From: Planctomycetota bacterium
Lineage (GTDB): Bacteria > Planctomycetota > Planctomycetia > Pirellulales > Lacipirellulaceae
Reading direction: 5' to 3'
NCBI GenBank assembly: GCA_029259945.1
Contig: JAJDEF010000028.1
Span: 1-64,000, forward strand
DNA length: 64,000 nucleotides
Position numbers and translations under genes: made by a program. Shown here one piece after another: positions 8,863 to 26,877 of the stretch; within the stretch, counting starts at the first letter, position 1, and every line of letters begins with the position of its first letter. Under the pieces are notes generated by a model. The model ran no database searches. It was not told where the DNA came from and was given only the letters and a program-made list of their open reading frames with translations.

Positions 8863-9915
8863 ATGAGTCACTCTGAGGCTACCACCGACGCCGAAACCAT
8901 TGCTCGACTGGCGACCACCGTCAATGGCATTCGCGAACAATTACGCCAAGTCATTGTCGGGCAAGATGATGTCATCGATCAACTTTTGATCAGCCTGTTT
9001 AGCCGAGGGCACTGTATGCTCGAAGGGGTTCCCGGCTTAGCAAAAACGCTGTTGATTAGCACCTTGGCACAAACGTTGAATCTCTCCTTCAGTCGAATTC
9101 AGTTTACGCCCGACTTAATGCCAGCGGACATTACCGGCACCGACATCATCGAAGAGAATCGTTCCACGGGGCAACGTGAAATCCGGTTCCTCGAAGGCCC
9201 TTTGTTTTCGCATATTATTCTTGCGGACGAAATCAACCGCACCCCACCCAAGACGCAAGCCGCGCTGCTCGAAGCGATGCAAGAACGTCAAGTAACCGTA
9301 GGCCGCGTACGACATCAACTTTCTGATCCTTTTTTCGTATTGGCCACGCAAAATCCGATCGAGCAAGAAGGGACTTACCCGTTGCCCGAAGCGCAGCAAG
9401 ATCGATTCATGTTCAAAGTGCTGGTGACCTACCCAAGCTTTGGCGAAGAATTTGAAATCGCTCGCCGAACCACCTCAAGCAGCACCAACACCGTGGTGCC
9501 GACGGTTGATCCTGAAGAAATTCTTAAACTACAAGAGCTAGTCCGCGCGGTTCCCGTCAGCGACCACGTGATTCGTTACACCCTCTCACTAGTACGGCAA
9601 ACTCGAGTCGGCGAGGGCGGGGTGCCCGAATTTGTCGCAGATCAACTCGCCTGGGGAGCAGGCCCCCGCGCCGTCCAGTTTTTAATCGTAGGTGGCAAAG
9701 CAAGAGCTTTGATGCAGGGGCGCACCCACGTAACGATCGAAGACATTCAAGCCCTGGCCAAGCCTGTGCTAAGGCATCGAATTGTGGTCAACTTTGCTGC
9801 GGAGAGCGACGGCATTAATTCCGACAGCATTATCGATTCGCTCATTCAGACCACGCCAACACAGGAGGATGAGTTGGCAAATGACGCCCGATTCCAAGCG
9901 ATTTTTGCATCCTGA
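8863..9915 (+). CDS. MoxR-family AAA+ ATPase
   Basis: AAA+ chaperone-like ATPase of the MoxR family that remodels or activates partner proteins, usually with VWA-domain proteins encoded next door. The 350-aa product has Walker A GVPGLAKT (residues 55-62), Walker B ILADE (119-123), sensor-1 region FVLATQNP and the family motif [13 protein letters not shown]. The next gene (DUF58) starts inside this one, overlapping by 35 nt, which implies translational coupling. The neighbourhood (DUF58, then two MIDAS-containing VWA proteins) is the classical MoxR-Bat arrangement. Confidence 0.95.
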
Positions 9916-10786
9916 AGCAATCCGACGGATTGGTCGATTGGAGTTGCGCGCTCGGCATATCGTCGAAGGGCTGCTTAGCGGCATGCACCGCAGCCCCTAC
10001 TTCGGTCAATCGGTCGAGTTTCTTCAGCATCGTCAATACACCCCCGGCGACGACCTACGGCACGTCGACTGGAAGGCGTGGGCCAAGCAAGATCGGCTTT
10101 ACGTAAAACAGTTTGAAGAAGACACCAACATGCGATGCACGTTGCTCGTCGATGTCTCGGCAAGCATGCAGTACGGCAACGGGCCGCTCAATAAATACGA
10201 ATACGCTGCGACCGTAGCAACAAGCTTGGCTTACTTGCTTCTCAAACAGCACGACACGGTCAGTTGTTTGACTTTCGACGAAAAGATTCGAGCTCGGACA
10301 CCGCTGCGAAGTCGTCAAAATCATTTGACGTCCATTGTCAAAATACTCGATTCCTGCGAACCGCAGGACAAAACAGACGCAGGCGTTATCTTACGCGAAG
10401 TGGTCGAGACAAGTCCCCGTCGGGGAATGATGGTCTTAGTCTCCGACTTGCTCGGGGACGTAGAGTCAACGCTTCGTGGCCTTCGTTTGCTCCGCCAACG
10501 GGGGCACGACGTACTCGTCTTACATATCATGGACGACGATGAATTGGACTTTCCATTTGAGGGGCCGACGAAGTTCGAAGGGCTGGAGTTGCCAACCCAC
10601 ATGAAATGCAATCCTCGGGCTCTGCGCGAGGGGTACTTGGCTTCATTGCAGCAATTCCTTACCAACTTACGAAGAGGTTGCGCCCGCGATGCAGTCGATT
10701 ACGCTTTAATCCGCACGAGTGACCCGCTAGATGCTGCACTTGCGGCGTTCTTATGTCACCGTGTGGCCGATGCTCGCATGCATTGA
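9881..10786 (+). CDS. DUF58 protein with VWA-like fold
   Basis: A 301-aa cytoplasmic protein of the DUF58 family, the standard MoxR partner. It contains the DUF58 signature [17 protein letters not shown] (residues 53-69) and an intact MIDAS-type DVSAS (91-95) for divalent cation binding. The ATG at 9881 was chosen because AGGAGG at 9863-9868 lies 12 nt upstream; longer versions would run far into moxR. The gene overlaps the moxR 3' end and is followed after 44 nt by the BatA-like gene. Confidence 0.93.
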
Positions 10787-10830
10787 GAAGCCGACAGCTC
10801 AAAGAATAACTTTCCAAGGAGAAAAACCAC

Positions 10831-13050
10831 GTGTCGTTCACTTTTCAATCGCTACTGGCGATTGGGCTACCGCTGATCGCTTTGCCGCTGTTGATCCATC
10901 TGATCAACCTGCGCAGACATCGGCGCGTCGAGTGGGCAGCGATGGACTTTTTGGTCGAAAGCCAGCGGCGCAACAAAAAATGGATCTTGCTCAGACAACT
11001 ATTGCTCTTGATGCTACGCACCGCTGCGGTAGCACTGGTCGTATTGATGTTGGCTGGGCCTGTTTTGCAGTATCAATGGGGGCAACTGATCGGCAACGGA
11101 ATGACCCACCATTTGTTGCTCCTGGACGACAGCTATTCGATGTCAGACCGGCACGATCAAACGACGGTGTTCGACGAAGCAAAACGCGTGGTCAATCTCA
11201 TTCTTCAACAATCTGCGATCCAATCGGATAACCAGAAGATCACGCTACTACGGTTTTCAGAAGCACAACGTCTGTCGGCTGGTGCCGAGCTTGAGGTCGG
11301 CGGTCGTCAACTCGACAGAAAACTAGTGGACGAAATTCAATCGCGTCTCGAGAAAATGCGACATTCAGAAAGTGACGCCGGGCCACTCGACGTCATCGAA
11401 GCGGCGTTAGGGCTACCAGAACCCGAGAAGGGCGAGGCGCGGATTGTGTACTTAATGTCTGATTTTCGCAGCCGACAGTGGGAGGAAAGTCAGCAAATTC
11501 GTCAGTCATTGGGCGAACTACGCGACCAGTCTGCCCAGCTGCACCTTGTTCAATGTGTTCGTCAATTTCGGCCTAATATAGCCATCACGCACCTCGAACC
11601 CGAATCTGGAATTCGAGCAGCGGGCGTAGAAACTTGGTTCCAGGTAAGCGTTGCTAATTATGACAACGTACCAGCCGCAGCAGTCCATCTTGGGATTACG
11701 CAAGATGGACATAAGCTTCCCGCAGTGCAGTTCGAAAAAATTGCTCCCGGCGAAGAGATTTCTCGACGTTTTCGCGTAACCTTCCCGACAGCTGGCGCCC
11801 ATCAACTTCAAGCGTCTTTAGAGAGCGACACAGTCGAGGCCGACAACGTCCACTATTTTGCCTGCCAAGTGCCGAAAAATTTCCCGGTTCTCCTGATCGA
11901 TGGTTCTCGACAGGGGGACGACGGTTACTATCTGCGATTGGCGCTAAACCCCGGTGGCGCGACCAAGCCTGGTTGGAGCCCGCAGGTCGAGCGTCCTAGC
12001 TTCCTTCGCCAGCATGAACGACTGAATGACTTTGCAGCGATTTGTTTGCTCGATGTACCTCGTCTTGATGAGGCTGAGGTCGCTGCACTAGAAAACTACG
12101 TGCGGCAAGGCGGCGGGCTCGGCCTATTCTTAGGCCCCAGTGTGCAGCAACCTTTCTACAACGAACGACTTTTCCGCGATGGCCAAGGCCTACTGCCAGC
12201 GCCGCTTGAGAGGCCGACTCAAATGCTTAGTGACGGGGATCGTGCTACCCCTGACGTGGTGGTGACCGACCATCCCCTTTTTCATGTCTTCAAAGGACAG
12301 CGAAATAGTTTTCTTTCGGTGGCGAAAGTCAACTTCTACTATGCCCTCGATTCTAGTTGGCGGATTCCAGAGGATGGGGCCACGCAGATTCTTGCGCGGT
12401 TGCAAAATGGTGCCCCGTTTGTTGTTGAAAAGAAATTTGGGGCGGGTCGCATTATCACGCAATTCGTAAAACTTTCGCCCAAACCGACCGAACTAGGCAG
12501 TTGGAGCAACTGGAGTCTCAATCCAGTGTTTCCGGTCTATGCAAATGAACTGGTTGGCTATCTTTCTGCTTCTCGGCGAGAATTTGAATCCCATGATATT
12601 GGCGACGAGCTCAAACTCGAATTGTCGGTCGCCGATTACGAGCCGGAAATCCGTGTACAGTTGCCTCGCACTCTTGTTCATGAAGAGACGACCTTGACCC
12701 CCAATGACAACGATGGCAAGTATTTGGTTGATGCCGGACGAAGCGAGGTGAGCGGTGTTTGGCAGTTTGAACTTCTACCCCGCGAAGGCGATCCCGAACG
12801 TCGTTTGATGGCAGTGAATGTTGCCATCGGAGAAGGCGATCTACACCACCTCGACCGTGCTGACTTAGCGCAACGCCTAAAAGGTGTCGACTACGAATTC
12901 TCGCTCGCCTCGCAAATGACCACCAGCAACGATCAACTAGCCGGTTTTCGGCTCAGCGATACGATGCTGTACCTGCTGCTGGCAGCCCTAATCCTCGAGC
13001 AATGGCTGGCCTATCGAGCCAGCTACCATACGCAAGTCACCAGAAAATAG
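10831..13050 (+). CDS. BatA-like membrane protein with VWA domain
   Basis: A 739-aa inner-membrane protein. The N-terminal BatA domain has two helices (about residues 7-25 and 56-78) separated by the basic HLINLRRHRRVEW segment typical of this family. A VWA domain with MIDAS DDSYS (99-103) follows. The middle part includes a beta-rich region and a GATase1-like segment (FPVLLIDGSRQGDDG, about 350), and a C-terminal helix (about 712-730) follows. This N- and C-terminal anchoring would place the VWA and amidotransferase-like domains in the periplasm. The start is GTG with AAGGAG nine bases upstream. Only 3 nt separate it from the next VWA gene. Confidence 0.9.
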   Translation: MSFTFQSLLAIGLPLIALPLLIHLINLRRHRRVEWAAMDFLVESQRRNKKWILLRQLLLLMLRTAAVALVVLMLAGPVLQYQWGQLIGNGMTHHLLLLDDSYSMSDRHDQTTVFDEAKRVVNLILQQSAIQSDNQKITLLRFSEAQRLSAGAELEVGGRQLDRKLVDEIQSRLEKMRHSESDAGPLDVIEAALGLPEPEKGEARIVYLMSDFRSRQWEESQQIRQSLGELRDQSAQLHLVQCVRQFRPNIAITHLEPESGIRAAGVETWFQVSVANYDNVPAAAVHLGITQDGHKLPAVQFEKIAPGEEISRRFRVTFPTAGAHQLQASLESDTVEADNVHYFACQVPKNFPVLLIDGSRQGDDGYYLRLALNPGGATKPGWSPQVERPSFLRQHERLNDFAAICLLDVPRLDEAEVAALENYVRQGGGLGLFLGPSVQQPFYNERLFRDGQGLLPAPLERPTQMLSDGDRATPDVVVTDHPLFHVFKGQRNSFLSVAKVNFYYALDSSWRIPEDGATQILARLQNGAPFVVEKKFGAGRIITQFVKLSPKPTELGSWSNWSLNPVFPVYANELVGYLSASRREFESHDIGDELKLELSVADYEPEIRVQLPRTLVHEETTLTPNDNDGKYLVDAGRSEVSGVWQFELLPREGDPERRLMAVNVAIGEGDLHHLDRADLAQRLKGVDYEFSLASQMTTSNDQLAGFRLSDTMLYLLLAALILEQWLAYRASYHTQVTRK

Positions 13051-13053
13051 TCC

Positions 13054-15549
13054 ATGCTCTCATCGTGGTTAAAAATCCCATGCCTGCTCGCCACAACGGC
13101 TTCCGAAGATGGCACTGCGCGCGAGTTGGTTGCCTACGAATTGCGCCGATTAGCACAGTTTGACGACCCCCAGCTATTCTGGGGAATCCTGTCCGCCGTG
13201 CTCGTCGCAGCTATTTTTTACGTCTTGGCTTTTTATCGCCGCGAATTAGGTGCACTCCCCTTTTTCCTTCGAGGGCTTCTGCCAGGGTTGCGTCTCGTTG
13301 CCTTGGCCGGTGCGGTCTTGTTTTTTCTTGAGCTCGAAAGACGTGTCGACCAACATGTCGTCACCGAATCCGAAATCCTACTACTAATAGACACCAGCCA
13401 AAGCATGTCGGTCGAGGATGAATCGCACAGCGCCGAAAACACGAAAATTACCCGAGGTCTCGCCGTGGCAAAGGCATTGGACGAATCTTCGATGATCGCC
13501 ACGCTGCGCCAACAGCATCACGTTTCCCTCTTGACCTTCGATCAACAAGTCAAGCGAATAAAAACCTGGACGAGACAAGATGAGGTCGAACCAAAAACTG
13601 ATGATTCAGATTCTACAGATCCGTTGGAAAACCTCAAAGCACCCTCGGACGCTTGGCAACAACAATTACTACCGAGCGGTGTCGAAACACGTTTGGGCAA
13701 CGCCTTGAAAGATGTCCTCGACCCGAGCGGCGATCATCCCTTGGCAGGCATCATTCTTGTTTCTGACGGTGGCCATAATATCGGCATCGACCCACTATCG
13801 CTGACCGATGCTTTGCAGGAAAAACGTATCCCCATCTATACCGTCGGGATGGGCTCCACCGAACCCCGTCGTAATGTGCGTGTGTTAGAACTCAACGCAC
13901 CTGCCCGACTTTTCCCCGAGGACCACGCAACGGTTCAAGCACTGATTCAGGGCGAGGATTTTGTGGGGCGTACGGTTCGCGTCGAGCTATTCTTAAGGTC
14001 AGCGGAGGCCGACGGCGCCGTTGCTGTTTCCGTGGGACAGCAGCAAGTCACCTTCGAAGAATCGCGGCAGACGATCCCTCTACAGTTTGAAATCGAACCC
14101 ACTGAGATTGGTCGGCTAAATATCGAGCTTCGTATTGCCGCCCCCACCGACGACCAATACCCCGACGACAACAGCCGCCAAGTCGAAGTCGAAGTGGTCG
14201 CAACACAGACTCGCGTTTTGCTGGTTGCGAGCGGTGCGACTCGTGATTATCGATTTTTGCGAAATCAACTTCGTCGCGACCATCACTCGACCGTCGACAT
14301 CTGGCTACAAAGTGCCCTGCCTGGCATTTCGCAAGACGCCGACACCATCTTGGATGACTTCCCACGGACGAAAGAAGAACTTTATCCCTACGATTGCATC
14401 GTTGCTTTCGACCCCGATTGGGGAATGCTCGATGCGCAGCAGGCCAAATTGCTCGAATCGTGGGTCGCCGAAGAGTCGGGCGGGTTAATCGTGGTTGCGG
14501 GGCCGATTCATACCTCGGGCTGGGTGCAAAATGCGGAACTTGCAAAAATTCGCGCGCTTTACCCGGTTGAATTTCAACGCCGGCTCACACTCCTCGACGA
14601 CGGACTCTTTGGCTCTCGAGTCCCCTGGCCAATTTCCTTTTCTCGCGAAGGCGAAGAGTCCGACTTTCTCTGGTTAGCCGACACAGCTACCGAGAGTCGT
14701 TCGCTGTGGGCACATTTTGCCGGAGTCTATGGATGCTACGCAGTCAAAGGCCCCAAGCCGGGCGCAAGAGTTTTAGGCCGTTATAGCGATCCCGATGCGG
14801 GGCTCTCGGTCGACCGCCCGATTTACTTCGCCGAGCATTTTTACGGCGGGGGCCGTGTGTTCTATATGGGTAGCGGCGAACTCTGGCGGTTGCGAAGCAT
14901 GGACGCGAGTTATTTTGAAATCCTCTACACGCGACTCATTCGCCACGTCAGCCAAGACCGGCTCTTGCGCGGCTCGTCTCGCGGCAGCTTGTTGGTCGAA
15001 CGAGATCGCTACACCCTCGGAGAAGAGGTCGTGGTGCGTGCCCAATTAACCTCAGCCAGCCGCGAACCGCTGCAGGCAGAGCGTGTCATCGCTCGAATCA
15101 TTACCCCGAAAGGCGAAGGACGTAACCTGACCATGAAGGCCGATGAAAATCGCCTTGGGAACTTTATTGGCCAGTTTAACGTCCGACAACCGGGGGGCTA
15201 TCGAATCGAACTAGCAATTCCCGACGCTTTGGATGAACAGCTCGTCAGGCGTATTCAAGTTCACGTTCCTGATTTAGAATTCGAGCAAACTCGCCGAAAT
15301 GCACCACTACTAGCCGCCCTCGCCAAGCAATCCGGAGGCTTTTACTACACTTCGCTCAAGACAGCGATCGAAGGCAGTGGTTCGCTTCCGCCAGTTGCAG
15401 AGCAAATCGAAAGCCGTGCGGAAGAGAAAACGCTTCGCGGTGCCCCCGACCAAGATTTTGCAGAAAAACTAAATCGCACTTTGCTCGCCGTCATTGCCGG
15501 CGCATTATGCCTGGAATGGCTATTGCGACGCTTTATGAAATTGGCATAG
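13054..15549 (+). CDS. Membrane VWA protein with GATase1-like domain
   Basis: An 831-aa membrane protein with two N-terminal helices (about 43-62 and 76-93). A VWA domain has MIDAS DTSQS (113-117). A beta-sandwich region follows, then a class I glutamine-amidotransferase-like domain (about 390-490, starting TRVLLVASGATRDYRFLRN). No catalytic Cys-His pair was identified, so this domain is probably non-enzymatic. A C-terminal helix (about 805-825) closes it. Architecture parallels the preceding BatA-like protein, suggesting an ancient duplication or a heterodimer. The start ATG lies 3 nt after the previous stop, indicating coupling. Confidence 0.88.
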   Translation: MLSSWLKIPCLLATTASEDGTARELVAYELRRLAQFDDPQLFWGILSAVLVAAIFYVLAFYRRELGALPFFLRGLLPGLRLVALAGAVLFFLELERRVDQHVVTESEILLLIDTSQSMSVEDESHSAENTKITRGLAVAKALDESSMIATLRQQHHVSLLTFDQQVKRIKTWTRQDEVEPKTDDSDSTDPLENLKAPSDAWQQQLLPSGVETRLGNALKDVLDPSGDHPLAGIILVSDGGHNIGIDPLSLTDALQEKRIPIYTVGMGSTEPRRNVRVLELNAPARLFPEDHATVQALIQGEDFVGRTVRVELFLRSAEADGAVAVSVGQQQVTFEESRQTIPLQFEIEPTEIGRLNIELRIAAPTDDQYPDDNSRQVEVEVVATQTRVLLVASGATRDYRFLRNQLRRDHHSTVDIWLQSALPGISQDADTILDDFPRTKEELYPYDCIVAFDPDWGMLDAQQAKLLESWVAEESGGLIVVAGPIHTSGWVQNAELAKIRALYPVEFQRRLTLLDDGLFGSRVPWPISFSREGEESDFLWLADTATESRSLWAHFAGVYGCYAVKGPKPGARVLGRYSDPDAGLSVDRPIYFAEHFYGGGRVFYMGSGELWRLRSMDASYFEILYTRLIRHVSQDRLLRGSSRGSLLVERDRYTLGEEVVVRAQLTSASREPLQAERVIARIITPKGEGRNLTMKADENRLGNFIGQFNVRQPGGYRIELAIPDALDEQLVRRIQVHVPDLEFEQTRRNAPLLAALAKQSGGFYYTSLKTAIEGSGSLPPVAEQIESRAEEKTLRGAPDQDFAEKLNRTLLAVIAGALCLEWLLRRFMKLA

Positions 15550-15617
15550 CTCGTTCAGCAACCATCAACTCAACAAAGAAAAACCAAACCTTGTCCACCG
15601 CTTCACTACCACTGCCG

Positions 15618-17825
15618 ATGCCAAAACTAGTCAGCCGCAAAGTTTCGCGGTTTCGTTGGCTGGTGCGTGCTTACGTTTTGATGGAAGGGTTCGCGGCCCT
15701 GGTACTGATATTATGCCTCGCCTTTTGGATAGGTTTGGCCATCGATTGGATTTTTGAGCCCACGCCCTTTTGGCGGGTCGCCCAATGGATATTCGTCTTG
15801 GGTGCTGCCCTTTATACCACCACACACTATCTTCTTGCCCGAATTTTTCGCCCTCTCTCCAGTACCAGCCTTGCGTTGCTGCTAGAGCGAACCCACCCTG
15901 AGCTAAAAGAAAGTCTTGTCACCACGGTTGAGGCGGCAAATCAAAACCAGGTGACCGCCGATGGGCACCAGACCATGCTCCGACATACGGGCCAAGAAGC
16001 CATCGATGCAATGCCGCAGGTTCGCCTGTCCCAGGCATTTAATTTTTTCCCGCTGCTATGGAAATTAACCTCGGCAATCGTATTAGTCGCGTCCATTTTT
16101 GCCTTCTCGGTTTTTCAAACCGAAGCCTTCGGTTTTTGGATTCAGCGAATGGGCCTCCACGAAGGAGCATGGCCTCGGCGTGTGCAATTATCGGTCGTCG
16201 GCTTTCAGCAAAACAATAATCATAAAGTAGTCCATGTCGCTCGTGACGGCGATTATGAACTGCAAGTCGAGGCTTCCATTCTCGAGGGTCACATTGCACC
16301 CGCAAGCGTAGAGATACGATACCGTCTCGCCGATGGTCGCCGTGGCCGCGATACGATGACGAAAATCGGTGTGGCGCTACCCGGCCACGACAAGGCGCAA
16401 CGGTTCCGATACACGTTCAAAAACGTGGTTTCCGATTTGCAATTTGACCTCATCGGCGACGACGACCGCATTGACGACCTTCTGCTCCACGTCGTCGAGC
16501 GTCCTCAAATCGTACGAATGTCGATGGAATGCGAATTCCCGACTTACTTAGAACGTCCACCTCAAACAATCCTCGTCAGTGGTCGAGCAGAACTCCCCGA
16601 GGGAACTCGCGGTAGATTTCGATTTTTGGCCAACAAACTTTTAGAACAAGCGAGTGTCTACGACCCCTCGTGCCAAGAAAATCTGCAGGCCGCAATCTCC
16701 GCTGAGGATCCCCATGAGGTGGCATTCGATTTTGATGCCGGCGCCACCGATCAGGTATTTCTCATCACGATGCTCGATACCGATGGGGTAGAAAATCGCG
16801 AACCCTATCGCGTCGTGCTCTCTATCATCGCCGACGAGGCGCCAGAGGTCTCGGTTCAACTCCGAGGCATTGGGTCTGCGATCACCCCCAGGGCAACGAT
16901 CCCATTTTCCGGACAAGTCACGGATGAGTATGGCCTAGAGAAAGTTTGGTTCGAATATCAGATCGACAAGAATTCGCCAGAGCAACAGGCACATCCGGCC
17001 CAGTTGCGCGGAAGACGCGAACTGTCGGAGTTAGGGAAATTCGATTTAGCAGAAACCGATCAAGAAACACGGCGTCGGCACCTTAATTTGCAGCCAGGGC
17101 AACAACTATCACTCACCGTCAAGGCGAGTGATGCCTATGATTTGCAGGAGCAACCCCATGTCGGGACAAGTCAACGGTTCTTGCTCGACATCGTGACGAA
17201 TTCCGAATTACGCGCCCTGCTCGAAAAACGAGAACTTGCCCTACGGCAACGATTCGAGGCCATCTACGAAAAGATGATCAGTACCCGTGATTTGCTCGAT
17301 CGAATCGAGATCGCACCTCAAATATCCGATGACATACCAATCGACGAAGTCGAAATCAACCGTCGCCGTAATCGCGATCAGCTGCGCATCGCTGGGGCGA
17401 TGCAGAATGTGACACAACTGGCCTACGAAACCGCAGGTGTGGCGGACGGCTTTGATGCCATTGTCGCCGAGTTAGTCAATAATCGGGTGGATACCGTAGA
17501 ACTAAAACAGCGACTGGAGCAGGGGATCTCTGAACCATTGAGAGAGATCAGCACTCGCCTCATGCCGACACTGGGAGAACGACTTCGAAAGCTCCAAAAA
17601 GTTTTTCAAGCAACCGAAGATCCACAGGCGAAGCTAGTTGCCTCGATCGCCCAAGCTGAGGTGGTCTCTGAGGCGATGAAAGAAGTGCTAGATCGCATGT
17701 TAGAGTTAGAAAGCTATAATGAACTTGTCGAGTTGTTGCGTGGAATTGTCGACGAGCAGAAGCAGTTGCAGGGGAAAACAAAGCAGCAAAGACGCGAAAA
17801 GATTCGTAGCTTGTTAGACGAATAA
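15618..17825 (+). CDS. Membrane protein with Ig-like middle and coiled-coil tail (DUF4175-like)
   Basis: The product is 735 aa from the ATG at 15618. It has two N-terminal helices (within about residues 15-75), a third helix near 145-165 (SAIVLVASIFAFSVF), a long beta-rich extracytoplasmic region and a helical charged C-terminal third with coiled-coil character. It resembles DUF4175-type proteins found after MoxR/VWA genes; that similarity is judged by architecture only. Start choice is uncertain: the frame is open upstream to ATG 15507 (inside the previous gene) and TTG 15591, but the hydrophobic anchor begins soon after 15618. Confidence 0.72.
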   Translation: MPKLVSRKVSRFRWLVRAYVLMEGFAALVLILCLAFWIGLAIDWIFEPTPFWRVAQWIFVLGAALYTTTHYLLARIFRPLSSTSLALLLERTHPELKESLVTTVEAANQNQVTADGHQTMLRHTGQEAIDAMPQVRLSQAFNFFPLLWKLTSAIVLVASIFAFSVFQTEAFGFWIQRMGLHEGAWPRRVQLSVVGFQQNNNHKVVHVARDGDYELQVEASILEGHIAPASVEIRYRLADGRRGRDTMTKIGVALPGHDKAQRFRYTFKNVVSDLQFDLIGDDDRIDDLLLHVVERPQIVRMSMECEFPTYLERPPQTILVSGRAELPEGTRGRFRFLANKLLEQASVYDPSCQENLQAAISAEDPHEVAFDFDAGATDQVFLITMLDTDGVENREPYRVVLSIIADEAPEVSVQLRGIGSAITPRATIPFSGQVTDEYGLEKVWFEYQIDKNSPEQQAHPAQLRGRRELSELGKFDLAETDQETRRRHLNLQPGQQLSLTVKASDAYDLQEQPHVGTSQRFLLDIVTNSELRALLEKRELALRQRFEAIYEKMISTRDLLDRIEIAPQISDDIPIDEVEINRRRNRDQLRIAGAMQNVTQLAYETAGVADGFDAIVAELVNNRVDTVELKQRLEQGISEPLREISTRLMPTLGERLRKLQKVFQATEDPQAKLVASIAQAEVVSEAMKEVLDRMLELESYNELVELLRGIVDEQKQLQGKTKQQRREKIRSLLDE

Positions 17826-17862
17826 AGCAGCCACATTCAGACCGACCTCGCAGAGAGTTGGC

Positions 17863-19461
17863 ATGATCAACAGTAATAAATATTGCGTCGCCTTCATAGG
17901 CGTTTTTGCCATCCTGAGTATGGTGGCCATCGCTCGGCATGCGCTGTCCGATGAATTTGAAAATCCTCTTCGTCAGCCCTCCGTAGAAGAAACTAATTTG
18001 GCCAATCAGGAATCTCGCCTAGCCGATCGTTTTAATCGGCTGGAATTGCTCGCCGGGAGGCTATCGGAGCTATCACGATCTACCCAGCCCCGTCGGGCGC
18101 GTCTCCTGCGCGAACTTATCACCAAAAGCCGTGAAAAAAACATAGCCGGTCGCTTTGAGGTCATTGTCGAAGCCCTGCAGCAAGATCGTCTTGCAAAAGC
18201 ATCTGAAAGGCAAGGGACACTCCAAGCCGACCTTCAAAAACTTCTTGACTTGTTATTGCAAGAAGGCCGTGACCGAGAAATCGAATCAGAGCGCAAACGC
18301 ATTACCAAATATCTGGCGGAACTTAAGAAGCTGATCCGCCAACAACGAGGCGTGAAAGCGCGTACCGAAGGTGGAGACGATGCCCAGGCGATTACTCAGG
18401 ACCAACAACGAATAGCAAACGCCACGAAGCAACTAGGCGGGCAAATCGAAGAAACCGATGGTTCAAAGAATCAAAATGCAGACCAACCTTCTGAAGGCGA
18501 GAGTTCTAAAAACAAAGGCCAACCACCCTCCGAAGCTCCGCCGAGCGAAGGTTCTCAGGGAAAACCCAAGCAGGGGCAACCTTCACAATCACCGGAAAAA
18601 GGCCAACCAAATTCTGGAGAGCCCTCTGAAGAAGATCGGCAGAGCCCCGCTGATCGTGCGACGCAACGACTACAAAAAGCCCAGCAGCGAATGCAACAAG
18701 CGAAGGAACGGCTCGAAGAGGCAAATCGTAAGCAAGCGATCGAAGAGCAAGAACAAGCACTGCGCGAGCTCGAACAAGCCAAAGCTGAACTGGAACGCAT
18801 CCTCCGCCAACTGCGAGAAGAAGAGCTAGAACGGACGCTCGTGTTACTCGAAGCTCGCTTCCGAAGAATGCTCGACGCACAAATCGAAGTCTACGAGCGA
18901 ACCTTAAAATTAGATTCTTCGCAAGCAAATGTTCCACTACACGAACTCGAAATTGCCAGTAGCCGGCTAAGCCGGAAGGAACGACAGATTATTCGAGACG
19001 CCGACCGAGCAATGGTGTTATTGCGAGAAGACGGCACGTCGGTGGCCTTTCCCGAAGCTTTGGAACAAGTGATCGACGATATGCAATCTGTGGTCAAACG
19101 TTTGGCCAATGGTAAGATTGGCATGATGACTCAAGGCTTAGAAGAAGATGTCATTGCTACACTAGAAGAAATTCTAGCTGCACTGCAACAGGCAATTAAA
19201 GAGTTGCGCGAACAGAAGGCAAAAGGGCAACAAGGCGAAAAACCACCCGGCGAACAATCGCTGGTCGATCAATTGGCAGAGCTACGTATGATCCGAGCCC
19301 TTCAGATGCGCGTGAATCGACGCACTACCAGATATGGAAAGATGATCGAGGGCGAACAAACACTCGAAACCGATCTTCTCGAAGCACTGGCGAAGCTAGC
19401 GATTCGTCAGGAACGGATATTCGAGGCAACCCGCGACCTCGACACCAACCGAAACCAATAG
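17863..19461 (+). CDS. Exported coiled-coil protein with Gln/Pro/Ser-rich linker
   Basis: A 532-aa protein of unknown function with an N-terminal signal-anchor (about residues 8-25). An alpha-helical region (about 40-180) leads to a low-complexity linker (about 200-265) rich in Pro, Ser, Glu, Gln and Lys. A strong heptad-like coiled coil rich in Glu, Gln and Arg follows (about 266-335), then a helical C-terminal region. The composition suggests a rod linking the membrane to a periplasmic partner. It is 37 nt after the DUF4175-like gene and 2 nt before the next gene, in the same operon. No enzyme motif was seen. Confidence 0.75.
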   Translation: MINSNKYCVAFIGVFAILSMVAIARHALSDEFENPLRQPSVEETNLANQESRLADRFNRLELLAGRLSELSRSTQPRRARLLRELITKSREKNIAGRFEVIVEALQQDRLAKASERQGTLQADLQKLLDLLLQEGRDREIESERKRITKYLAELKKLIRQQRGVKARTEGGDDAQAITQDQQRIANATKQLGGQIEETDGSKNQNADQPSEGESSKNKGQPPSEAPPSEGSQGKPKQGQPSQSPEKGQPNSGEPSEEDRQSPADRATQRLQKAQQRMQQAKERLEEANRKQAIEEQEQALRELEQAKAELERILRQLREEELERTLVLLEARFRRMLDAQIEVYERTLKLDSSQANVPLHELEIASSRLSRKERQIIRDADRAMVLLREDGTSVAFPEALEQVIDDMQSVVKRLANGKIGMMTQGLEEDVIATLEEILAALQQAIKELREQKAKGQQGEKPPGEQSLVDQLAELRMIRALQMRVNRRTTRYGKMIEGEQTLETDLLEALAKLAIRQERIFEATRDLDTNRNQ

Positions 19462-19463
19462 TC

Positions 19464-20525
19464 ATGAATATACTACGTTCTATTTTGATACAAATCACGA
19501 TGAGCATGGCATGCTTCGTCGCGGTTGCCGTCATGAGCCACGCTGCGATAGGCCAGTTGACCTTTGAGCCCAGTTGGCAAATGCCCGCGTACCCCACGGT
19601 TCGCAATTCGATTCTAGAGTGGATAAACCAATCGAGCGCCGAAGATCAATCGCAGGCCCAAGCAAGAGCCTTATGGCCAACGACCGAACTACGACCCTTA
19701 GGTGGCACCGCGTTGCTAAGCCGTGTTGCCGAAACATTTTCGCTAGCGAATTCGCAAGCCAGGGCACTATTTGAAGCGTGCAATCTCGAACACCTAGGAT
19801 CCATCCCGCCCGATGCAAGCTGGCTCGACGATCACGCACTGTCAAACACCTTGCGTCACAACTTGCGTTTGTATTATGCCCGGTGGCTTGCGCAACAGGG
19901 CTTTTACGACGAAGTGATTCTAGCCCTCGAAGGCCTAAAACCGTCTGATGTCGTCGACCCAGCCGGGTTGTTGTTCTATCGGTTAGTCGCGTACCACCAA
20001 CTCGTACAACCTGAAAAAAGCCGCGTCGCGTTGGTACAACTGCTAGAGCAAGAGGCCGCCTTGCCGCGCCGTTACCAGCAAGTAGCAAAACTAATCCAAC
20101 GAGATATCGCAGGTCTGGAGGATGAATCACTCGATCACATCGCTCGTCGGATGAACGACGTCCACCGTCGGCTTGAATTTGGTCGTGCTGGCAAGCAAGT
20201 TCAAATGGTCGAAAATGGTGTGGTAGAGTCGCTCGACAAAATCATCAAAAAGTTGGAAGAACAACAGCAACAGTCTTCTGGCACGGGTGGTTCTGCACAA
20301 AGTTCAAGACCGATGGAGGATAGCCGTCTTCCTTCGTTGAAAGCTCCGATGAAGGTTCACCAACGTGATATTGGCAGCCAATCGGGCTGGGGAGCGCTGC
20401 CAGACAAAGAGCGTAAACAGGCGATGCAACAAATTGGACGAGAATTCCCCGCCCATTATCGCGAACTAATCCAAGAGTATTTTCGAGACTTGGCCGAAAG
20501 TGCCGACTCCTCACCCTCCAATTAA
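19464..20525 (+). CDS. Small exported protein of the MoxR/VWA operon, unknown function
   Basis: A 353-aa protein with a signal peptide (about residues 3-32, ending SHAAIGQ). An alpha-helical, TPR-like region follows (about 100-240, including the YYARWLAQQGFYDEVILALEG-type helices). A Ser/Gln-rich segment near 265-290 leads to a conserved-looking tail (WGALPDKERKQAMQQIGREFPAHYRELIQEYFRDLAE). This tail resembles one seen at the end of exported planctomycete proteins that accompany VWA genes; I do not recognise a named family. The start ATG is 2 nt after the preceding stop, so it is almost certainly co-translated. Confidence 0.72.
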   Translation: MNILRSILIQITMSMACFVAVAVMSHAAIGQLTFEPSWQMPAYPTVRNSILEWINQSSAEDQSQAQARALWPTTELRPLGGTALLSRVAETFSLANSQARALFEACNLEHLGSIPPDASWLDDHALSNTLRHNLRLYYARWLAQQGFYDEVILALEGLKPSDVVDPAGLLFYRLVAYHQLVQPEKSRVALVQLLEQEAALPRRYQQVAKLIQRDIAGLEDESLDHIARRMNDVHRRLEFGRAGKQVQMVENGVVESLDKIIKKLEEQQQQSSGTGGSAQSSRPMEDSRLPSLKAPMKVHQRDIGSQSGWGALPDKERKQAMQQIGREFPAHYRELIQEYFRDLAESADSSPSN

Positions 20526-20547
20526 CGGTTTTTCGAGAAAGAAATAA

Positions 20548-21954
20548 GTGACCAGGAACAAGAAGAAACCACAGATGAACAGGCAGAAAGCTAAGAGCCT
20601 AGAGCAGAGAGCCGGAAAAAAAATCAGCTCTTGGCTTTCCGCTCTTAGCTCTCCGCTTACAAGCCGTGTTTATCTGTGTTCATCCCTGGCTAATTTCCTG
20701 TCCCAAATCAATTTTCGTTTTTTTGCCCTAGCCTTGCTGCTTGCTCTTTTTCAGGCAGATGCAATTGCTCGCGTGACCGTCACCACGGTCGATGGCGACC
20801 CGATATCCGGCGAGTTACTGACCTGGAACACCAAAAGCATTGCGATTTCGCATGAGGGCACGTCAAAAACGTTCAACCTGGATCAGTTGCTCGACATCCG
20901 CTGGTTGCGTGCTGGAAATGTTGCTAAGACACCTGCGGCATTGATCGAACTAAACGATGGCACCCGACTGCCAATCAGCAAGTATGAGGTCACCGATTTT
21001 CAGGCAACGGTCAGTACGTCGCTTTCAAAAAACCCATTGCAGATAGCAACCAATAACATTCGCCGCGTTCAGTTCACCCCGTCCACCGATCAGTTGGCGC
21101 TGCTGTGGAAGGAACTCGAAGATAAACAATTGGCCGGCGATGTACTCATCGTTCATAAAAAGCAGGGGACAATTCTCGACTATCTGCCGGGGCTCTTAGG
21201 AGATATCACTGCCGAGCAAGTTCTCTTTGAATGGGAAGGGGATGAAATCCCCGTAAAACGCTCGAAGATTGCGGCCCTCGCTTATTTCCATGCCACGGAA
21301 TCAAAAAACGAGCCGGCCACTTGCTGGCTGAAAACTAATAACGGCGCGCGGCTTCCTATTGTTTCGACAGTCGTGGAAGGGGCGAATTTAAGGGTCGTTA
21401 CCGTAGACGGTTTGGAATTCATCTTGTCTCAGGATTCTTTGAGCGAAGCTGACTTTTCGCAAGGGAAACTTCGCTACTTAAGTGACCTTGAACCCATTAA
21501 GCAAACCTGGACCCCACGTATTGCCCTGCCACTGGCAGCAAAATTAATCCAAAACCATGGCCTGCCAAGGCGGGATCAATCGTTTACCGGCTCGGCTCTG
21601 ACGCTTGACTGGGGCTCCGAGAAATCGCGCAACCTAAACAACACCCAAACCTACGAAAAAGGATTAGCGATACGCAGTCGCACGGAAATCCTTTATCGTT
21701 TGCCGAAACAAATGCAACGATTTGTCGCGGTTGCTGGTATCGACCCTGCCACAGCGAATCATGGTAGCGTGCTTCTCGAAATTTCAGCCGACGGTCGCGT
21801 CGTCTGGCAAGGAGAGATCGCAGGCCGTAGCCAACCCACCGAAATATCCGTCCCGCTGGATGGGGCACGCCAACTACGAATCTTCGTTGACTATGGTGCC
21901 AACCTTGATTACGGCGACCGTCTTCACCTGATTGATGCTCGTGTGACCAAATGA
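20548..21954 (+). CDS. Exported NPCBM/NEW2-domain protein with repeat-derived N-terminus
   Basis: A 468-aa protein. The recognisable part has a signal-like helix (about residues 60-75, FFALALLLALFQADAIA), SH3-like beta repeats (GEL/ARLPI segments, about 80-300) and a C-terminal NPCBM/NEW2 carbohydrate-binding-like domain (about 320-466, with VLLEISADGRVVWQGEI). The first 47 codons come from a palindromic intergenic repeat (20551-20690) read in frame from a GTG at 20548, leaving a signal peptide with an abnormally long basic n-region. No later ATG exists before the hydrophobic stretch. The next gene overlaps by 4 nt (ATGA). Confidence 0.75.
   Translation: MTRNKKKPQMNRQKAKSLEQRAGKKISSWLSALSSPLTSRVYLCSSLANFLSQINFRFFALALLLALFQADAIARVTVTTVDGDPISGELLTWNTKSIAISHEGTSKTFNLDQLLDIRWLRAGNVAKTPAALIELNDGTRLPISKYEVTDFQATVSTSLSKNPLQIATNNIRRVQFTPSTDQLALLWKELEDKQLAGDVLIVHKKQGTILDYLPGLLGDITAEQVLFEWEGDEIPVKRSKIAALAYFHATESKNEPATCWLKTNNGARLPIVSTVVEGANLRVVTVDGLEFILSQDSLSEADFSQGKLRYLSDLEPIKQTWTPRIALPLAAKLIQNHGLPRRDQSFTGSALTLDWGSEKSRNLNNTQTYEKGLAIRSRTEILYRLPKQMQRFVAVAGIDPATANHGSVLLEISADGRVVWQGEIAGRSQPTEISVPLDGARQLRIFVDYGANLDYGDRLHLIDARVTK
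20551..20690. repeat. Palindromic dispersed repeat inside a 5' coding end
   Basis: An imperfect long inverted repeat. Outer arms are CACAGATGAAC (20570-20580) against GTTTATCTGTG (20668-20678), and inner arms are AGCTAAGAGC (20589-20598) against GCTCTTAGCT (20641-20650), perfect over 10 bp. The composition matches the ACCACAGA... type palindromes that also occur at 24.7 kb in this window. It supplies the first codons of the NPCBM-domain gene. Confidence 0.7.
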
Positions 21955-24725
21955 CCCAAACACCAATGAAACTATCCCTCTTGCTAACGCTTCTGCTTAC
22001 CACGGCCGTAGGTGCAGGAATTGTACCCGACGCCGCGGTAAGAGAAGCCCAGCAGCATCGCATCGAAGTTGTCCAACGCGCATCGGCAACCGCTGTCGCT
22101 GTTTTCGACAGCAAGGGCGAAGGGGGCGGTGCAGGCGTGGTAATATCGCCAGATGGATTTGCACTGACCAATTTTCATGTGGCAGCTCCCAGCGGTACAG
22201 CCATGAAGTGTGGCATGGCAGATGGCCGAGTTTACGATGCGGTGATTGTTGGTCTCGACCCGGTGGGCGATGTCGCACTAATCCAGCTACTTGGCAGAGA
22301 GAATTTCCCTTACGCAGAGCTAGGCAATAGCGACCAAGTCCAGACAGGCGATTGGGTGTATGCCGTCGGCAACCCCTTTCTATTGGCCGACGATTTTACC
22401 CCGTCGGTAAGTTACGGCATCGTTTCCGGCGTCCACCGGTATCAGTACCCAGCAGGTACCCTACTCGAATATACCGACTGCATTCAAACCGATGCTTCCA
22501 TCAATCCAGGCAATTCCGGAGGCCCGCTATTCAATGCCGTTGGTAAAGTCATCGGCATCAATGGCCGTGGATCGTTTGAAAAGCGTGGCCGTGTGAATGT
22601 TGGCGTTGGTTACGCAATCTCCATCAATCAAATTAAGCGCTTTCTTGGCCACCTCAAGAGTGGCCGAATCGTCGATCATGCAACACTAGGGGCCACGGTC
22701 GCAACCGAAGAAGACGGCCGAGTTGTCATCGACGACATACTAGAAACATGTGATGCCTATCGGCGCGGCCTGCGCTATGGCGATGAGATAACTCGCTTTG
22801 CCGGACGAGAAATCACCTCGGCCAATGCACTGCAAAATGTACTAGGCATTTTTCCTCGTGGTTGGACCGTTCCGCTATCCTTTCGCCGCGACGGGTCTAC
22901 TTTTGATATCCAAGTCCGTCTGCTGAGCTTGCACGATCAAGCACAACTCTACGACCTTGTGCAAACTGAAGCACAAAAGCCAGCGAAGCCTCATCAAGAT
23001 GACCAAGAGAAGGACAAACCGAAGTTACCGCCGGCATTCAAAAAGAATGCAAAGCTACCCGAGGTGGTGGCGCAGCGATTCGAAGCACGGCGTGGCTATG
23101 CCAACTATTGGTACAACCTTCAAAAGCAACAGGAGCTATGGAGTCGTTATCAGAGCGATCGTGACGGTGCCGTTGCGAGCTACGTCTGGAAACTCAACGG
23201 GCATCTACCTTCGGGTGAGCCTTTTCAAATCGAAACCGAAGCAAAAAAGGCTTCGATGCAGTTGCCTGTGGGTAATACGAGTGTCCAGTTCACCGAGAAT
23301 CTTGAACGGCAACTCAGTCCACCCGGCTCCGGAGGTTTGCTGCTGACCCTTCATCTTTGGCAGCGGATGCTAGACAAAGGGCTCCGCCAATTTGGCGAAG
23401 TCTATTATCTGGGACAATTACCAATCGGCCCCCATGCGACGCGTGTCGACTGTTTGGTCGGAATCTATGCCGGGATTGAAATTCGATTTCTATTTTCACG
23501 CAATCACGGCGAGCTCGTCGGCATCGACATGTTTCCTGAGGACGAGCGAGACCCCTGCAAACTGCGATTCTTCGACTTTGGCGGACTCGACGACGGCCAA
23601 CGAATCGCAAAACGCTGGCAAGTCACCCATGGCGGCACCCTCTACGCCGAATTGCAAATGGACAAATGTGAAGGAACCGACGGGCTCTTTCGTGCTAAAC
23701 CATTAACGAGCAAGACCGAGCCTAAGGAGATCGCCGAGCCGCCTGTTCTTTCACGCCCGCCGGCCAATATTCGCAACGCCTGGAATAAAGTCGTCAAACT
23801 TTACGGGGCAGGGGGGCTACGGCAGATGGAATCCTATCAGTCGGGCATTCTCATCTCGACGGACGGCCATGTGCTCACCGCGCTGAGTTATGTGCTAGAT
23901 ACCGAAGACTTGGTTGCGATTCTTGATGATGGACGCAAGTTTCAAGCTGAATTTCTCGGCAGCGACCCAGTACGTGAAATTGCCGTACTTAAACTGCAGG
24001 CTGCCGACGAACCGTTCCCCTATTTCGATCTCCACGCGGCTCCGATGCCAACCGAAGGGGATCGTATTATGGCGTTGAGCAATCTTTTTGGCATTGCCAC
24101 GGGGGACGAACCGGTGAGCGTATTGAAAGGCGTGGTCACTGCAATCGCTCCCCTATCGGCCCGCCGCGGAGCGTTTCAATCAAACTATCGTGGTCAAGTT
24201 TTTGTGCTCGATGCTTATGCAAACAACCCTGGGTCTGCAGGGGGCGCGTTGGTGGATTGGCAAGGCCGGTTGCTCGGCATCTTGGGAAAAGAACTGCGCA
24301 GCGAAGTCACCGGCACCTGGCTGAATTATGCTCTACCGGCCAATGCAGTCGTTGAGGCCGTCGACGCTATTATTGCCGGCCGCGAAATTCAATCAGCAGA
24401 TTCCAAAGGCCAACTGCCTGAGCAACCTCTCACACCCGAAATCCTAGGTTTGCGTCTGGTCCCCAACGTGCTAGCGCGTACTCCTCCCTACATTGATACC
24501 GTGCGTCTAAGTTCGGCGGCCGATGTTGCCGGGCTCAGGTCAGATGATCTCATCGTCTTTGTCGAAGGCGAGCCGGTCTCTTCGCGACAAGCATTTTTAG
24601 ATCGTTTGCGCTATCACGACCGCGAACAAAACTTGCGATTATCGGTGCTTCGTGATGGTGCCCTACTAGAATTCGAACTCCAGGCAAACTCCCTCTTAGA
24701 AAACCCTAACACGCCAGAGCCTTGA
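21951..24725 (+). CDS. HtrA-like protein: active S1C domain, inactive second protease domain, PDZ domains
   Basis: A 924-aa exported protein with a signal peptide (about 6-22). The first trypsin-like domain has a complete triad: TNFHV (His76), GDVAL (Asp107) and GNSGGP (Ser189). A PDZ domain lies at about 245-325. A second trypsin-like domain (about 610-775) keeps the fold but has TALSYV where TNxHV is expected (Ser646 for His) and GSAGGA for GNSGGP (Ala763 for Ser), so it should be proteolytically dead. A last PDZ domain is at about 830-910. It overlaps the NPCBM gene by 4 nt. Likely role: periplasmic quality control tied to the VWA/MoxR operon; the pairing is inferred from linkage. Confidence 0.88.
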   Translation: MTQTPMKLSLLLTLLLTTAVGAGIVPDAAVREAQQHRIEVVQRASATAVAVFDSKGEGGGAGVVISPDGFALTNFHVAAPSGTAMKCGMADGRVYDAVIVGLDPVGDVALIQLLGRENFPYAELGNSDQVQTGDWVYAVGNPFLLADDFTPSVSYGIVSGVHRYQYPAGTLLEYTDCIQTDASINPGNSGGPLFNAVGKVIGINGRGSFEKRGRVNVGVGYAISINQIKRFLGHLKSGRIVDHATLGATVATEEDGRVVIDDILETCDAYRRGLRYGDEITRFAGREITSANALQNVLGIFPRGWTVPLSFRRDGSTFDIQVRLLSLHDQAQLYDLVQTEAQKPAKPHQDDQEKDKPKLPPAFKKNAKLPEVVAQRFEARRGYANYWYNLQKQQELWSRYQSDRDGAVASYVWKLNGHLPSGEPFQIETEAKKASMQLPVGNTSVQFTENLERQLSPPGSGGLLLTLHLWQRMLDKGLRQFGEVYYLGQLPIGPHATRVDCLVGIYAGIEIRFLFSRNHGELVGIDMFPEDERDPCKLRFFDFGGLDDGQRIAKRWQVTHGGTLYAELQMDKCEGTDGLFRAKPLTSKTEPKEIAEPPVLSRPPANIRNAWNKVVKLYGAGGLRQMESYQSGILISTDGHVLTALSYVLDTEDLVAILDDGRKFQAEFLGSDPVREIAVLKLQAADEPFPYFDLHAAPMPTEGDRIMALSNLFGIATGDEPVSVLKGVVTAIAPLSARRGAFQSNYRGQVFVLDAYANNPGSAGGALVDWQGRLLGILGKELRSEVTGTWLNYALPANAVVEAVDAIIAGREIQSADSKGQLPEQPLTPEILGLRLVPNVLARTPPYIDTVRLSSAADVAGLRSDDLIVFVEGEPVSSRQAFLDRLRYHDREQNLRLSVLRDGALLEFELQANSLLENPNTPEP

Positions 24726-24738
24726 ATCAAGACAACTA

Positions 24739-24890
24739 CAAAGTCGGTACGATCAATTGAAAAGATTTACCACAGAGGGCGCAGAGCAGCACAGAGTGTC
24801 TAAAAAATAAGCTTTTCTCCGTGTTCTCTGTGCCCTCTGTGGTTCAGTTAATTTTGTTTTATCTTATGCCATTGCGACTTTGCAGTTCAC
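24739..24890. repeat. Dispersed palindromic repeat, copy 1
   Basis: Begins CAAAGTCGGTACGATCAAT. It contains an imperfect hairpin made of an ACCACAGAGGGCGCAGAG arm (about 24769-24786) and a CTCTGTGCCCTCTGTGGT arm (about 24826-24843), and ends TTGCAGTTC. The flanks reappear at 30071-30199. It fills the gap between the two HtrA-like genes and carries no coding signal. Confidence 0.8.
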
Positions 24891-24912: not shown

Positions 24913-26877
24913 ATGAAATATCTTGCAGCCCTATTGTTGACATTGCTATTTGCAAATCCTGCGCTGACGCGCGCAGAAGTCAGTCTAGACCTACGGGAGC
25001 AACAAGCCTGGCATGCAGCAGCCGAAACGGTTGCGGATTCAGTGGTACAAATCCACACCGTCGGTGGCCTCGATCGGGTGGGTAAAGCGCTCCTCTCGCA
25101 GGGGCCTACCACCGGCTTAATCGTCTCGGCAGATGGCTACATTGTGTCGAGCGCTTTTAATTTTGCCGGGCAACCCAATTCCATCCTCGTCCGCCTAGCC
25201 AACGGCAAACAGTTGCCAGCAGAGCTTGTCGCCCGTGACAAAAACCGATTGCTAGTCCTGCTTAAAGTCGAATCAGAAACACCTCTGCCCGTGACTGAAG
25301 CAGTCGCCGAAGACCAAATTCATGTGGGCCAATGGTCGGTCGCAGTCGGTCGTACGTTTAACAACGATCAAGTAAATGTCTCGGTAGGGATCATCAGCGG
25401 ATTACGCCGACGCTCTGGCCGAGTGATTCAAACCGACGCCAGCATCTCGGTAGCCAACTATGGCGGACCGTTAGTCGATATCGATGGCCGTACACTGGGC
25501 ATACTCGTCCCGATGGCACCACAAGGTGATGAAGGTCAGCTCGCTGGTGCTAAATACTATGATTCGGGAATCGGATTTGCGGTTCCGCTGACCCATGTTC
25601 TTTCGGTGCTCGAACGGTGGAAACTGGGCGAAGATCTTCTGCCAGGGAAATTAGGAGTAGGGCTTGCCGCAGGACCTGCCGCGATCACTCCCCCAAAAAT
25701 CGTCTCCGTTTGGCCTGGGTCGCCAGCAGCGGCTGCCGGTTGGAAAACCGACGATTTGATCTTATCGATCAACGCTCAGTCGGTCACCACTCAAGCTCAG
25801 TTGCGATTTCTAATCGTCCCCCGCTATGCCGGGGATACCCTGGACGTAATAATCCGGCGAGGCGAGAAGGAGTTGGAATCAAAAATCACCCTTGCCGGCG
25901 AGATGGCCGTTTATCGCCATGCGTTTTTAGGCGTGTTGCCTGATCGAAGTGGCAAGTCGGAAGAAACGGATGGCATCCTCATACAAAAGGTCTGGCCGAA
26001 TAGCCCAGCCGCAGTGGCGGGGCTTAAGGCGGGTGATTTGCTAAAGGCCATCAATCAAAAAAAACTCAAGTCGTTTGAAAAAGCACTGGAAGTCTTGGCA
26101 GCGTTGCAACCCAAAGAGTTAGTCCAACTGACGGTCATTCGTAATAAAACCGAGCTTGCACTCACTGTCGAATTAAGCGAGCTGCCCACTGCAATTCTCG
26201 AACGCGATGAATTAACCGTCCCCAAAAGTGCTCCAGAAGACCATAACAACCAAGAACTCCAATCGATCAAACTTCCTGAATTCAAGCAAGAGGCCCTGTT
26301 TTTTGCGGCCGAGACAGACACCGACCATCAAAAAGGCCTGCTACTTTGGTTAGGTGATGGCAGCGACGAGGGCGATCAACAGCTCCTCAATGCTTGGCGA
26401 GAAATATGCCGTCGTGACCACCTAGTTTTGCTGATTGCCCACCCAGCGAATACGACAGGATGGACCTCAGACGACTTGGCCTATCTCGAACGGCTCGCGC
26501 GATCAGCGCAGAATCGTTGGCGTCTCAATCCTCAAAGAATCGTCGCGGGTGGTATCGAAAAAGCAGGCCAACTGGCTTTCGCATTGGCATTCGCAAAGCG
26601 TAAAAATTTCAGCGGCGCGATTGGCATCGATGCCCCCTTACCCCGGTCGCTGCAAATTCCTACAAATCATCCAGGCACCCGCTTAGCGATTCTCGCCATC
26701 GAGTCACAGAACTCCACCTTCGCACCACTCATCCGAAACGACCTAGAGCGACTCCACCAAGCAGGCTACCCCGCCAGTTGGCTTCAAGTTCCTGCCCGCA
26801 ATGACAACCCATCGGCACTCGATTCGAAAGTCACCGAGAGCCTCTCGCGCTGGATCAACGGACTCGACCGGCTTTAG
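24913..26877 (+). CDS. Pseudoprotease-PDZ-PDZ-pseudohydrolase fusion
   Basis: The product is 654 aa from the ATG at 24913; an upstream TTG lies inside the repeat and is less likely. It has a signal peptide (about 3-21), then a trypsin/HtrA-like domain (about 30-220) in which all three triad positions are changed: SSAFN for TNxHV, RLLVLL for the Asp motif, and VANYGGPL for GNSGGPL (Tyr for Ser). Two PDZ domains follow (about 240-330 and 345-430). The C-terminal 190 residues look like an alpha/beta-hydrolase fold, but the nucleophile elbow reads VAGGIEKAG instead of GxSxG. It is probably a binding or regulatory protein rather than an enzyme, and shares ancestry with the neighbouring HtrA-like gene. 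Confidence 0.82.
   Translation: MKYLAALLLTLLFANPALTRAEVSLDLREQQAWHAAAETVADSVVQIHTVGGLDRVGKALLSQGPTTGLIVSADGYIVSSAFNFAGQPNSILVRLANGKQLPAELVARDKNRLLVLLKVESETPLPVTEAVAEDQIHVGQWSVAVGRTFNNDQVNVSVGIISGLRRRSGRVIQTDASISVANYGGPLVDIDGRTLGILVPMAPQGDEGQLAGAKYYDSGIGFAVPLTHVLSVLERWKLGEDLLPGKLGVGLAAGPAAITPPKIVSVWPGSPAAAAGWKTDDLILSINAQSVTTQAQLRFLIVPRYAGDTLDVIIRRGEKELESKITLAGEMAVYRHAFLGVLPDRSGKSEETDGILIQKVWPNSPAAVAGLKAGDLLKAINQKKLKSFEKALEVLAALQPKELVQLTVIRNKTELALTVELSELPTAILERDELTVPKSAPEDHNNQELQSIKLPEFKQEALFFAAETDTDHQKGLLLWLGDGSDEGDQQLLNAWREICRRDHLVLLIAHPANTTGWTSDDLAYLERLARSAQNRWRLNPQRIVAGGIEKAGQLAFALAFAKRKNFSGAIGIDAPLPRSLQIPTNHPGTRLAILAIESQNSTFAPLIRNDLERLHQAGYPASWLQVPARNDNPSALDSKVTESLSRWINGLDRL

Follow-up and report, generated by a model that had tools for sequence, protein, structure and literature searches.

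Gene C of the window analysed here, the whole stretch of 64,000 nucleotides from a Planctomycetota bacterium (contig JAJDEF010000028.1), encodes what is, on its sequence, an HtrA pseudoprotease and not a member of the active proteases of that family. Relatives of C occur in the phylum together with two further HtrA paralogues: A, which retains the catalytic triad, and B, which has lost it. We give roughly even chances to the proposal that C is a component of a three-part extracytoplasmic HtrA system, in which A, B and C would form a mixed oligomer, one of every three sites being active. The initial annotation had placed the interest of C elsewhere, in the fusion of two dead enzymes within one protein. 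As the main point, this fusion was not borne out, and the core retained here is the dead HtrA domain with its first PDZ domain, in the company of A and B.

Architecture of protein C

The reading frame of gene C opens with an ATG at position 24913 and its stop codon ends at 26877; a further in-frame TTG is present at 24880. The domains of the protein are laid out as follows.

24913..26877, + strand: gene C, 654 aa; dead HtrA domain, PDZ1, PDZ2 and dead alpha/beta-hydrolase, predicted to be exported
25111..25503, + strand: dead trypsin-like domain (Trypsin_2)
25651..25899, + strand: PDZ1, residues about 247-329 (approximate limits)
25960..26175, + strand: PDZ2, residues 350-421
26230..26874, + strand: dead alpha/beta-hydrolase (esterase-like) domain, residues 440-654

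The N-terminus reads as a signal-peptide-like stretch. Scanning the protein against Pfam gave Trypsin_2 at residues 67-197 (E 1e-18) and two PDZ_2 stretches (E 5.4e-24), so that C has the order that defines the HtrA/Deg fold, a trypsin-like domain and then PDZ domains. An AlphaFold2 single-chain model, computed with 78 alignment rows, reached a pLDDT of 91.4 and a pTM of 0.85; its best Foldseek matches were DegP and DegQ (E about 1e-31), and VIA-align placed it on HtrA chains with Z of about 25-27. Because VIA-align with the whole model was silent on the C-terminus, the last 215 residues were also folded separately (see below). Both folds assigned by the initial annotation, HtrA and alpha/beta-hydrolase, were recovered in these predictions.

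An old and conserved loss of the protease triad

The triad positions of C were located by alignment with the active HtrA domain of the neighbouring gene.

25156..25158, + strand: F82, catalytic His position
25249..25251, + strand: L113, catalytic Asp position
25459..25461, + strand: Y183, catalytic Ser position

The His-Asp-Ser triad of an active HtrA/Deg protease is therefore missing from C. Among 118 distinct homologues of C that were aligned, 117 have letters at these positions. The His position is occupied by F in 99, Y in 9, I in 4, A in 2, and L, S and V in 1 each, the Asp position by M in 89, K in 8, N in 8, L in 6, Q in 3, R in 2 and G in 1, and the Ser position by Y in 117/117, in a set that is biased towards Tyr since part of it was found with the patterns NYGGPL[VI]D and YDSGIGFA. 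As a control, 60 C loci were taken on HMM score alone, the active-site residue being ignored. In these loci, chosen by hand among the higher-scoring places and thus not a random sample, Tyr stands at the Ser position in 60/60, the His position is never His and the Asp position is never Asp. The substitutions that the initial annotation had read in the protease domain are thus real, and every homologue examined carries replacements at these positions, contrary to what recent decay would give. Around the old nucleophile, N182 is kept in 140 of 141 sequences, and S179, Y183, G184 and G185 are each kept in 141 of 141.

Estimates of dN/dS from 18 close homologue pairs, wherever defined, lay at 0.017-0.30 in the dead HtrA part and at 0.018-0.29 in the dead hydrolase (one pair was undefined throughout and 3 more in one segment), the highest values coming from a single pair with a dS of only 0.04-0.19. 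Taken together, the sequences indicate that the loss of catalysis in C is old and that the protein is under purifying selection. A single-protein search of genome contigs with C returned no relatives; these were found by the later profile search.

The C-terminal hydrolase fold

Folded alone, the 215 C-terminal residues gave a pLDDT of 93.5 and a pTM of 0.91. Foldseek matched this lone domain to esterases (best E 5e-10), and VIA-align did so with Z of 17.8-19.4 among the 50 matches listed, the best of them (Z 19.4) covering 192 residues with an rmsd of 2.8. The domain profile likewise matched solved esterases, 8jh8 (a feruloyl esterase, E 1e-9) and 3wyd (E 1.7e-9), and Pfam assigned no family to this C-terminus, either in the whole-protein scan or with the domain of the window alone. 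Chains of TAL-effector repeats were also matched by the profile within the E cut-off; these matches were dropped as repeat artefacts because no single stretch passed the cut-off alone and the lone domain folds as a hydrolase. The fold is thus of the esterase type, shared with feruloyl/PHB-depolymerase-type esterases. By alignment, the position of the GxSxG nucleophile is taken by a glutamate.

26557..26559, + strand: E549, GxSxG nucleophile position of the hydrolase domain

In contrast to those esterases, the hydrolase domains of C lack the nucleophilic serine in 110/113 sequences (Ser in 2 of 78 alignment rows and in 1 of 35 further rows), and in their C-terminal loop no column has His in more than 15 of 113 rows. 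The two features of an active esterase, a GxSxG serine and a conserved histidine, are accordingly absent. The initial annotation was right that this protein has no such nucleophile, though in the family the loss is near-universal and not absolute. The 3/113 domains with a serine at this position have odd motifs, for example SYSDG and TFSDGG.

A search for the hydrolase domain at the 60 control loci placed the PDZ2-hydrolase extension of C at 35 and not at the other 25, on which ground the fusion with a hydrolase was rejected as the central feature. The 35 hydrolase-bearing loci are all the picked members of the window's order/class outside its own family, with the addition of genome G172. Short forms of C come from 11 loci of the window's own family and from 14 other members of the phylum. 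On a tree of 72 loci, the own-family short forms (11 fetched) cluster together amid long forms. Hence, the hydrolase domain is a lineage-specific add-on to C; it was probably lost within the window's own family, and outside the window's class the short form may be the ancestral one.

The neighbouring gene and the A-B-C set

Upstream of C lies a gene in which an active and a dead HtrA are joined.

21951..24725, + strand: fused A + B gene, 924 aa; active HtrA, PDZ, middle part, dead HtrA, PDZ
22128..22559, + strand: protease domain of component A, H-D-S triad intact
23841..24281, + strand: protease domain of component B, triad lost (S/E/A)

The initial annotation had remarked that C lies next to this hybrid. 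The adjacency is no local peculiarity: the hybrid is a fusion of the A and B of a widespread A, B, C set, two components that most relatives, Blastopirellula marina among them, encode separately. The H-D-S triad of A is present at 65/65 loci found by patterns and at 54/55 control loci, the one exception being a fragment without the His stretch. In B, the Ser position is never Ser (0/74 pattern-found and 0/55 control loci); His is retained at 2/55 control loci, and Asp at some. Between the two halves of the window's A-B protein stands a middle part of about 265 aa (about residues 345-610, window 22986-23780), for which Pfam has no family and which persists as the C-terminus of separate A proteins. 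When the fused protein was aligned jointly with unfused A and B proteins, the B rows fell onto A (about 26% identity), and this alignment was left unused.

On a tree of 73 rows, A, B and C form one clade each, with SH-aLRT values of 100, 96 and 99; the split between the three paralogues is thus older than the sampled members of the phylum. On the 72-locus tree, computed from the three components joined end to end, at least 4 changes are needed to explain the A-B fusion: A and B were fused several times, the gene of the window being one such case. Recurrent gene fusion is a classic sign of cooperating proteins.

Gene order is strongly kept. At 55 of the 60 control loci the three components follow each other as A>B>C on one strand, A and B sharing one open frame in 5. 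At the 5 remaining loci C stands apart, yet the genome holds A and B elsewhere: together in three genomes (G407, G349 and G386), whereas A, B and C are all separated in two (G147 and G129). Among 80 pattern-found loci, 64 have A, B and C each of more than 250 aa, with the order A>B>C on one strand in 64/64 and A fused to B in 4; the other 16 were left out of this count, a component being incomplete or missing.

Co-occurrence was followed with profiles of A, B and C, built from loci holding all three, over 157 Planctomycetota genomes (own genome included, completeness 93% or more). With cut-offs set after the scores had been seen, A, B and C are present in the identical 52 of the 157 genomes, and the full set is in none of the other 105. 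For B, the positives score at or under 1.5e-73, against 2.5e-47 and weaker for the rest; for C, the limits are 1.2e-87 against 4.7e-64. The gap is not clean for A, where the positives lie at or under 5.4e-102 together with a partial match in G436 (1.2e-83), against 3.4e-85 (genome G047) and weaker. G436 was counted as positive, since the open frame that contains its A match equals its B in length; G047, although borderline for both A and C, was counted as negative because it has no B. At G047:C181:11601-13384, two adjacent HtrA genes are found, one A-like (3.4e-85) and one C-like (4.7e-64), without B; this pair is possibly an older or a reduced form of the set.

The positives comprise 36 of the 38 genomes searched in the window's class, own included, and 16 elsewhere in the phylum. 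The two exceptions within the class, G209 and G419, are without A, B and C alike. Three families (f3, f61 and f68) each mix genomes with and without the set, so that its joint loss or acquisition has probably happened on more than one occasion. A, B and C stay together even in the genomes where their linkage is broken. Since the three are carried all or none, the dead members are probably working parts of a protease machine and not decaying genes.

Genomic context

The A-B-C set usually closes a cluster of BatA/VWA, VWA, membrane, coiled-coil, unknown and NPCBM genes. In the window this cluster is arranged as follows.

8863..19461, + strand: rest of the cluster; AAA+ MoxR-like, DUF58-like, BatA/VWA, VWA, membrane protein and coiled-coil genes
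19464..21954, + strand: two genes just upstream of A, usually kept there; 353 aa without an assigned function and 468 aa with an NPCBM domain

The MoxR and DUF58 names are those that we presume for the genes concerned. In many Planctomycetota, part of this one-strand cluster (8863-21954) is retained ahead of the HtrA genes.

Between the A-B gene and C, a palindromic element occupies window positions 24769-24843, with arms of 18 nt lying 39 nt apart. The arm occurs in 70 copies in the 3.48 Mb genome when up to 1 mismatch is allowed, against 0 for the reversed control, and many copies are inverted pairs about 30-50 nt apart. This element is a REP-like dispersed repeat that fills part of the 187-nt gap between the two genes.

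A possible mixed HtrA oligomer

The step from three proteins needed together to one mixed oligomer is one that we infer. In such a model, A would be the sole catalytic subunit, and B and C would be old, specialised pseudoproteases with PDZ domains of their own. The three would be joined through the HtrA trimerisation surface, B and C recruiting substrates or sensing signals via their PDZ domains; in the lineage of the window, the dead hydrolase of C might offer a ligand- or substrate-docking surface. The binding or signalling role foreseen for C by the initial annotation keeps its sense here, both folds being inactive by their residues and the losses being conserved, but the role is better described as that of a non-catalytic subunit of a three-part HtrA system.

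In addition, C may act on the active site of A from the neighbouring subunit, by means of an arginine in loop L3.

25408..25410, + strand: R166, loop-L3 Arg position (DegS Arg178), positions matched by motif reading

In plant Deg8, an arginine that we assign to this position makes a bond to an LD-stretch Asp of the neighbouring subunit (PMC3640471). In DegS, the L3 Arg178 of one subunit clusters with loop LD of the next, and ligands of the PDZ domain are believed to act as activators both in cis and in trans (PMC11642142). In the L3/LD stretch, which alone was looked at among the interface residues, after the fact and with our own motif matching, the L3 Arg of the HtrA/Deg activation cluster is present in 141/141 C and 120/120 A sequences and is not conserved in B. 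The Gln of the QTD motif is likewise invariant in A (120/120) and C (141/141), whereas B does not conserve it. Only A retains the NPF motif of loop LD, which B and C lack. In the stretch from NPF to the beta-strand (LD), an acidic residue is found in A (Asp, 113/120) and in B (Glu, 128/129), with none conserved in C.

As its L3 Arg is invariant, C, though dead, would keep the arm with which to act on a neighbour. The L3 Arg being present in A and C and the facing acid in A and B, only the interface of B with C is without both; this acid/Arg pattern fits, weakly, a ring in which C would act on A and A on B. The full version of the model, an obligate hetero-oligomer with one active site per three folds, dead subunits carrying sensor domains, C switching A through the L3 Arg and a ring order C>A>B, is held more tentatively, at a little under even chances. 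Against a mixed oligomer in general, it should be considered that A homotrimers alone are possible, that B is without the L3 Arg and C without the NPF motif, and that the linkage of the three genes may in part be a consequence of the larger cluster to which they belong.

Alternative roles of B and C

The most serious alternative, which we nevertheless regard as unlikely, would leave B and C beside A and outside its oligomer, as PDZ scaffolds or chaperone-like holders that deliver substrates, or that work on another member of the MoxR/VWA cluster. HtrA proteins do also act as chaperones, the VWA, membrane, coiled-coil and NPCBM genes are largely kept upstream, and in some lineages C has two additional domains of a binding type, all of which would suit such a role. 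The recurrence of the A-B fusion is less easily accommodated, as is the retention by B and C of a whole HtrA core with its own conserved residues, beyond the PDZ domains. It may also be imagined that B and C restrain A, as inhibitors or as substrate competitors occupying target sites to limit cleavage; a Tyr in place of the Ser would occupy the pocket, and competitor pseudoproteases occur in other families. We consider this improbable, one-to-one gene order and three-way co-occurrence being better suited to a subunit than to a titrating inhibitor.

That C has gained a new enzymatic activity through the invariant Tyr, Asn and Ser at its old active site would draw on the near-invariance of N182, S179, Y183, G184 and G185. 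Structural conservation of the oxyanion loop explains these residues equally well, and the former triad positions contain neither a conserved His nor a conserved acid, so that we see very little chance of it. Finally, beyond the loss of the triad itself, nothing speaks for C being in decay or for its replacements being recent, a reading that is rejected, as barely credible, on the Tyr conserved in 60/60 loci, the low dN/dS and the deep clade extending across the sampled phylum.

Comparison with known HtrA systems

DegP, DegQ and DegS, of peptidase family S1C, resemble C in being exported and in combining a trypsin-like domain with PDZ domains, and DegP and DegQ are its best structural matches. 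In contrast, they are active homo-oligomers of single-gene origin, whereas B and C, devoid of a triad, are retained together with A as one set. The plant proteins Deg5 and Deg8 form a joint complex. As in the A-B-C case, they are two HtrA paralogues in one compartment; however, in the part of the structural account cited here, the crystallised forms are homo-oligomers and both have a triad (PMC3640471).

The closest precedent, an active HtrA accompanied by a trypsin-like pseudoprotease, is provided by MamE and MamO of magnetotactic Alphaproteobacteria, where the pseudoprotease MamO is described as promoting proteolysis by the HtrA protease MamE (PMC4794232). Protein C is likewise a dead trypsin-like domain encoded beside an active HtrA, but the MamE/MamO system has two components and the present one three, with two different dead partners bearing PDZ domains. 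Moreover, MamO has a C-terminal transporter domain, through which it partly acts, binds metal at a surface di-histidine site and serves magnetosome formation, whereas C ends in a hydrolase fold, and the F/L/Y replacements and the hydrolase of C have no counterpart in MamE/MamO as presented in the portion of the source considered (PMC4794232). MamO is set beside C by role and not by demonstrated close kinship. A survey of PDZ proteins reports that planctomycetes are rich in them, and the part of it considered here makes no mention of the A-B-C set (PMC6411480). No description of the trio was found in the searches made of open PMC papers. A live HtrA with a pseudoprotease partner was already known; here the dead partners are two, and the set extends across much of a phylum, on an all-or-none basis in the genomes searched.

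Concluding remarks

HtrA proteins are textbook oligomers of identical subunits, each of which is sensor and protease at once. A live paralogue inherited together with two dead ones through much of a phylum offers a natural experiment that separates sensing from cutting, and the passage of signals between HtrA subunits becomes directly testable with three pure proteins. The A-B-C set also offers a way into a large and conserved cluster of envelope genes in the Planctomycetota. If the proposal is true, a mixed HtrA would bring a proteasome-like division of labour to a family of identical-subunit oligomers.
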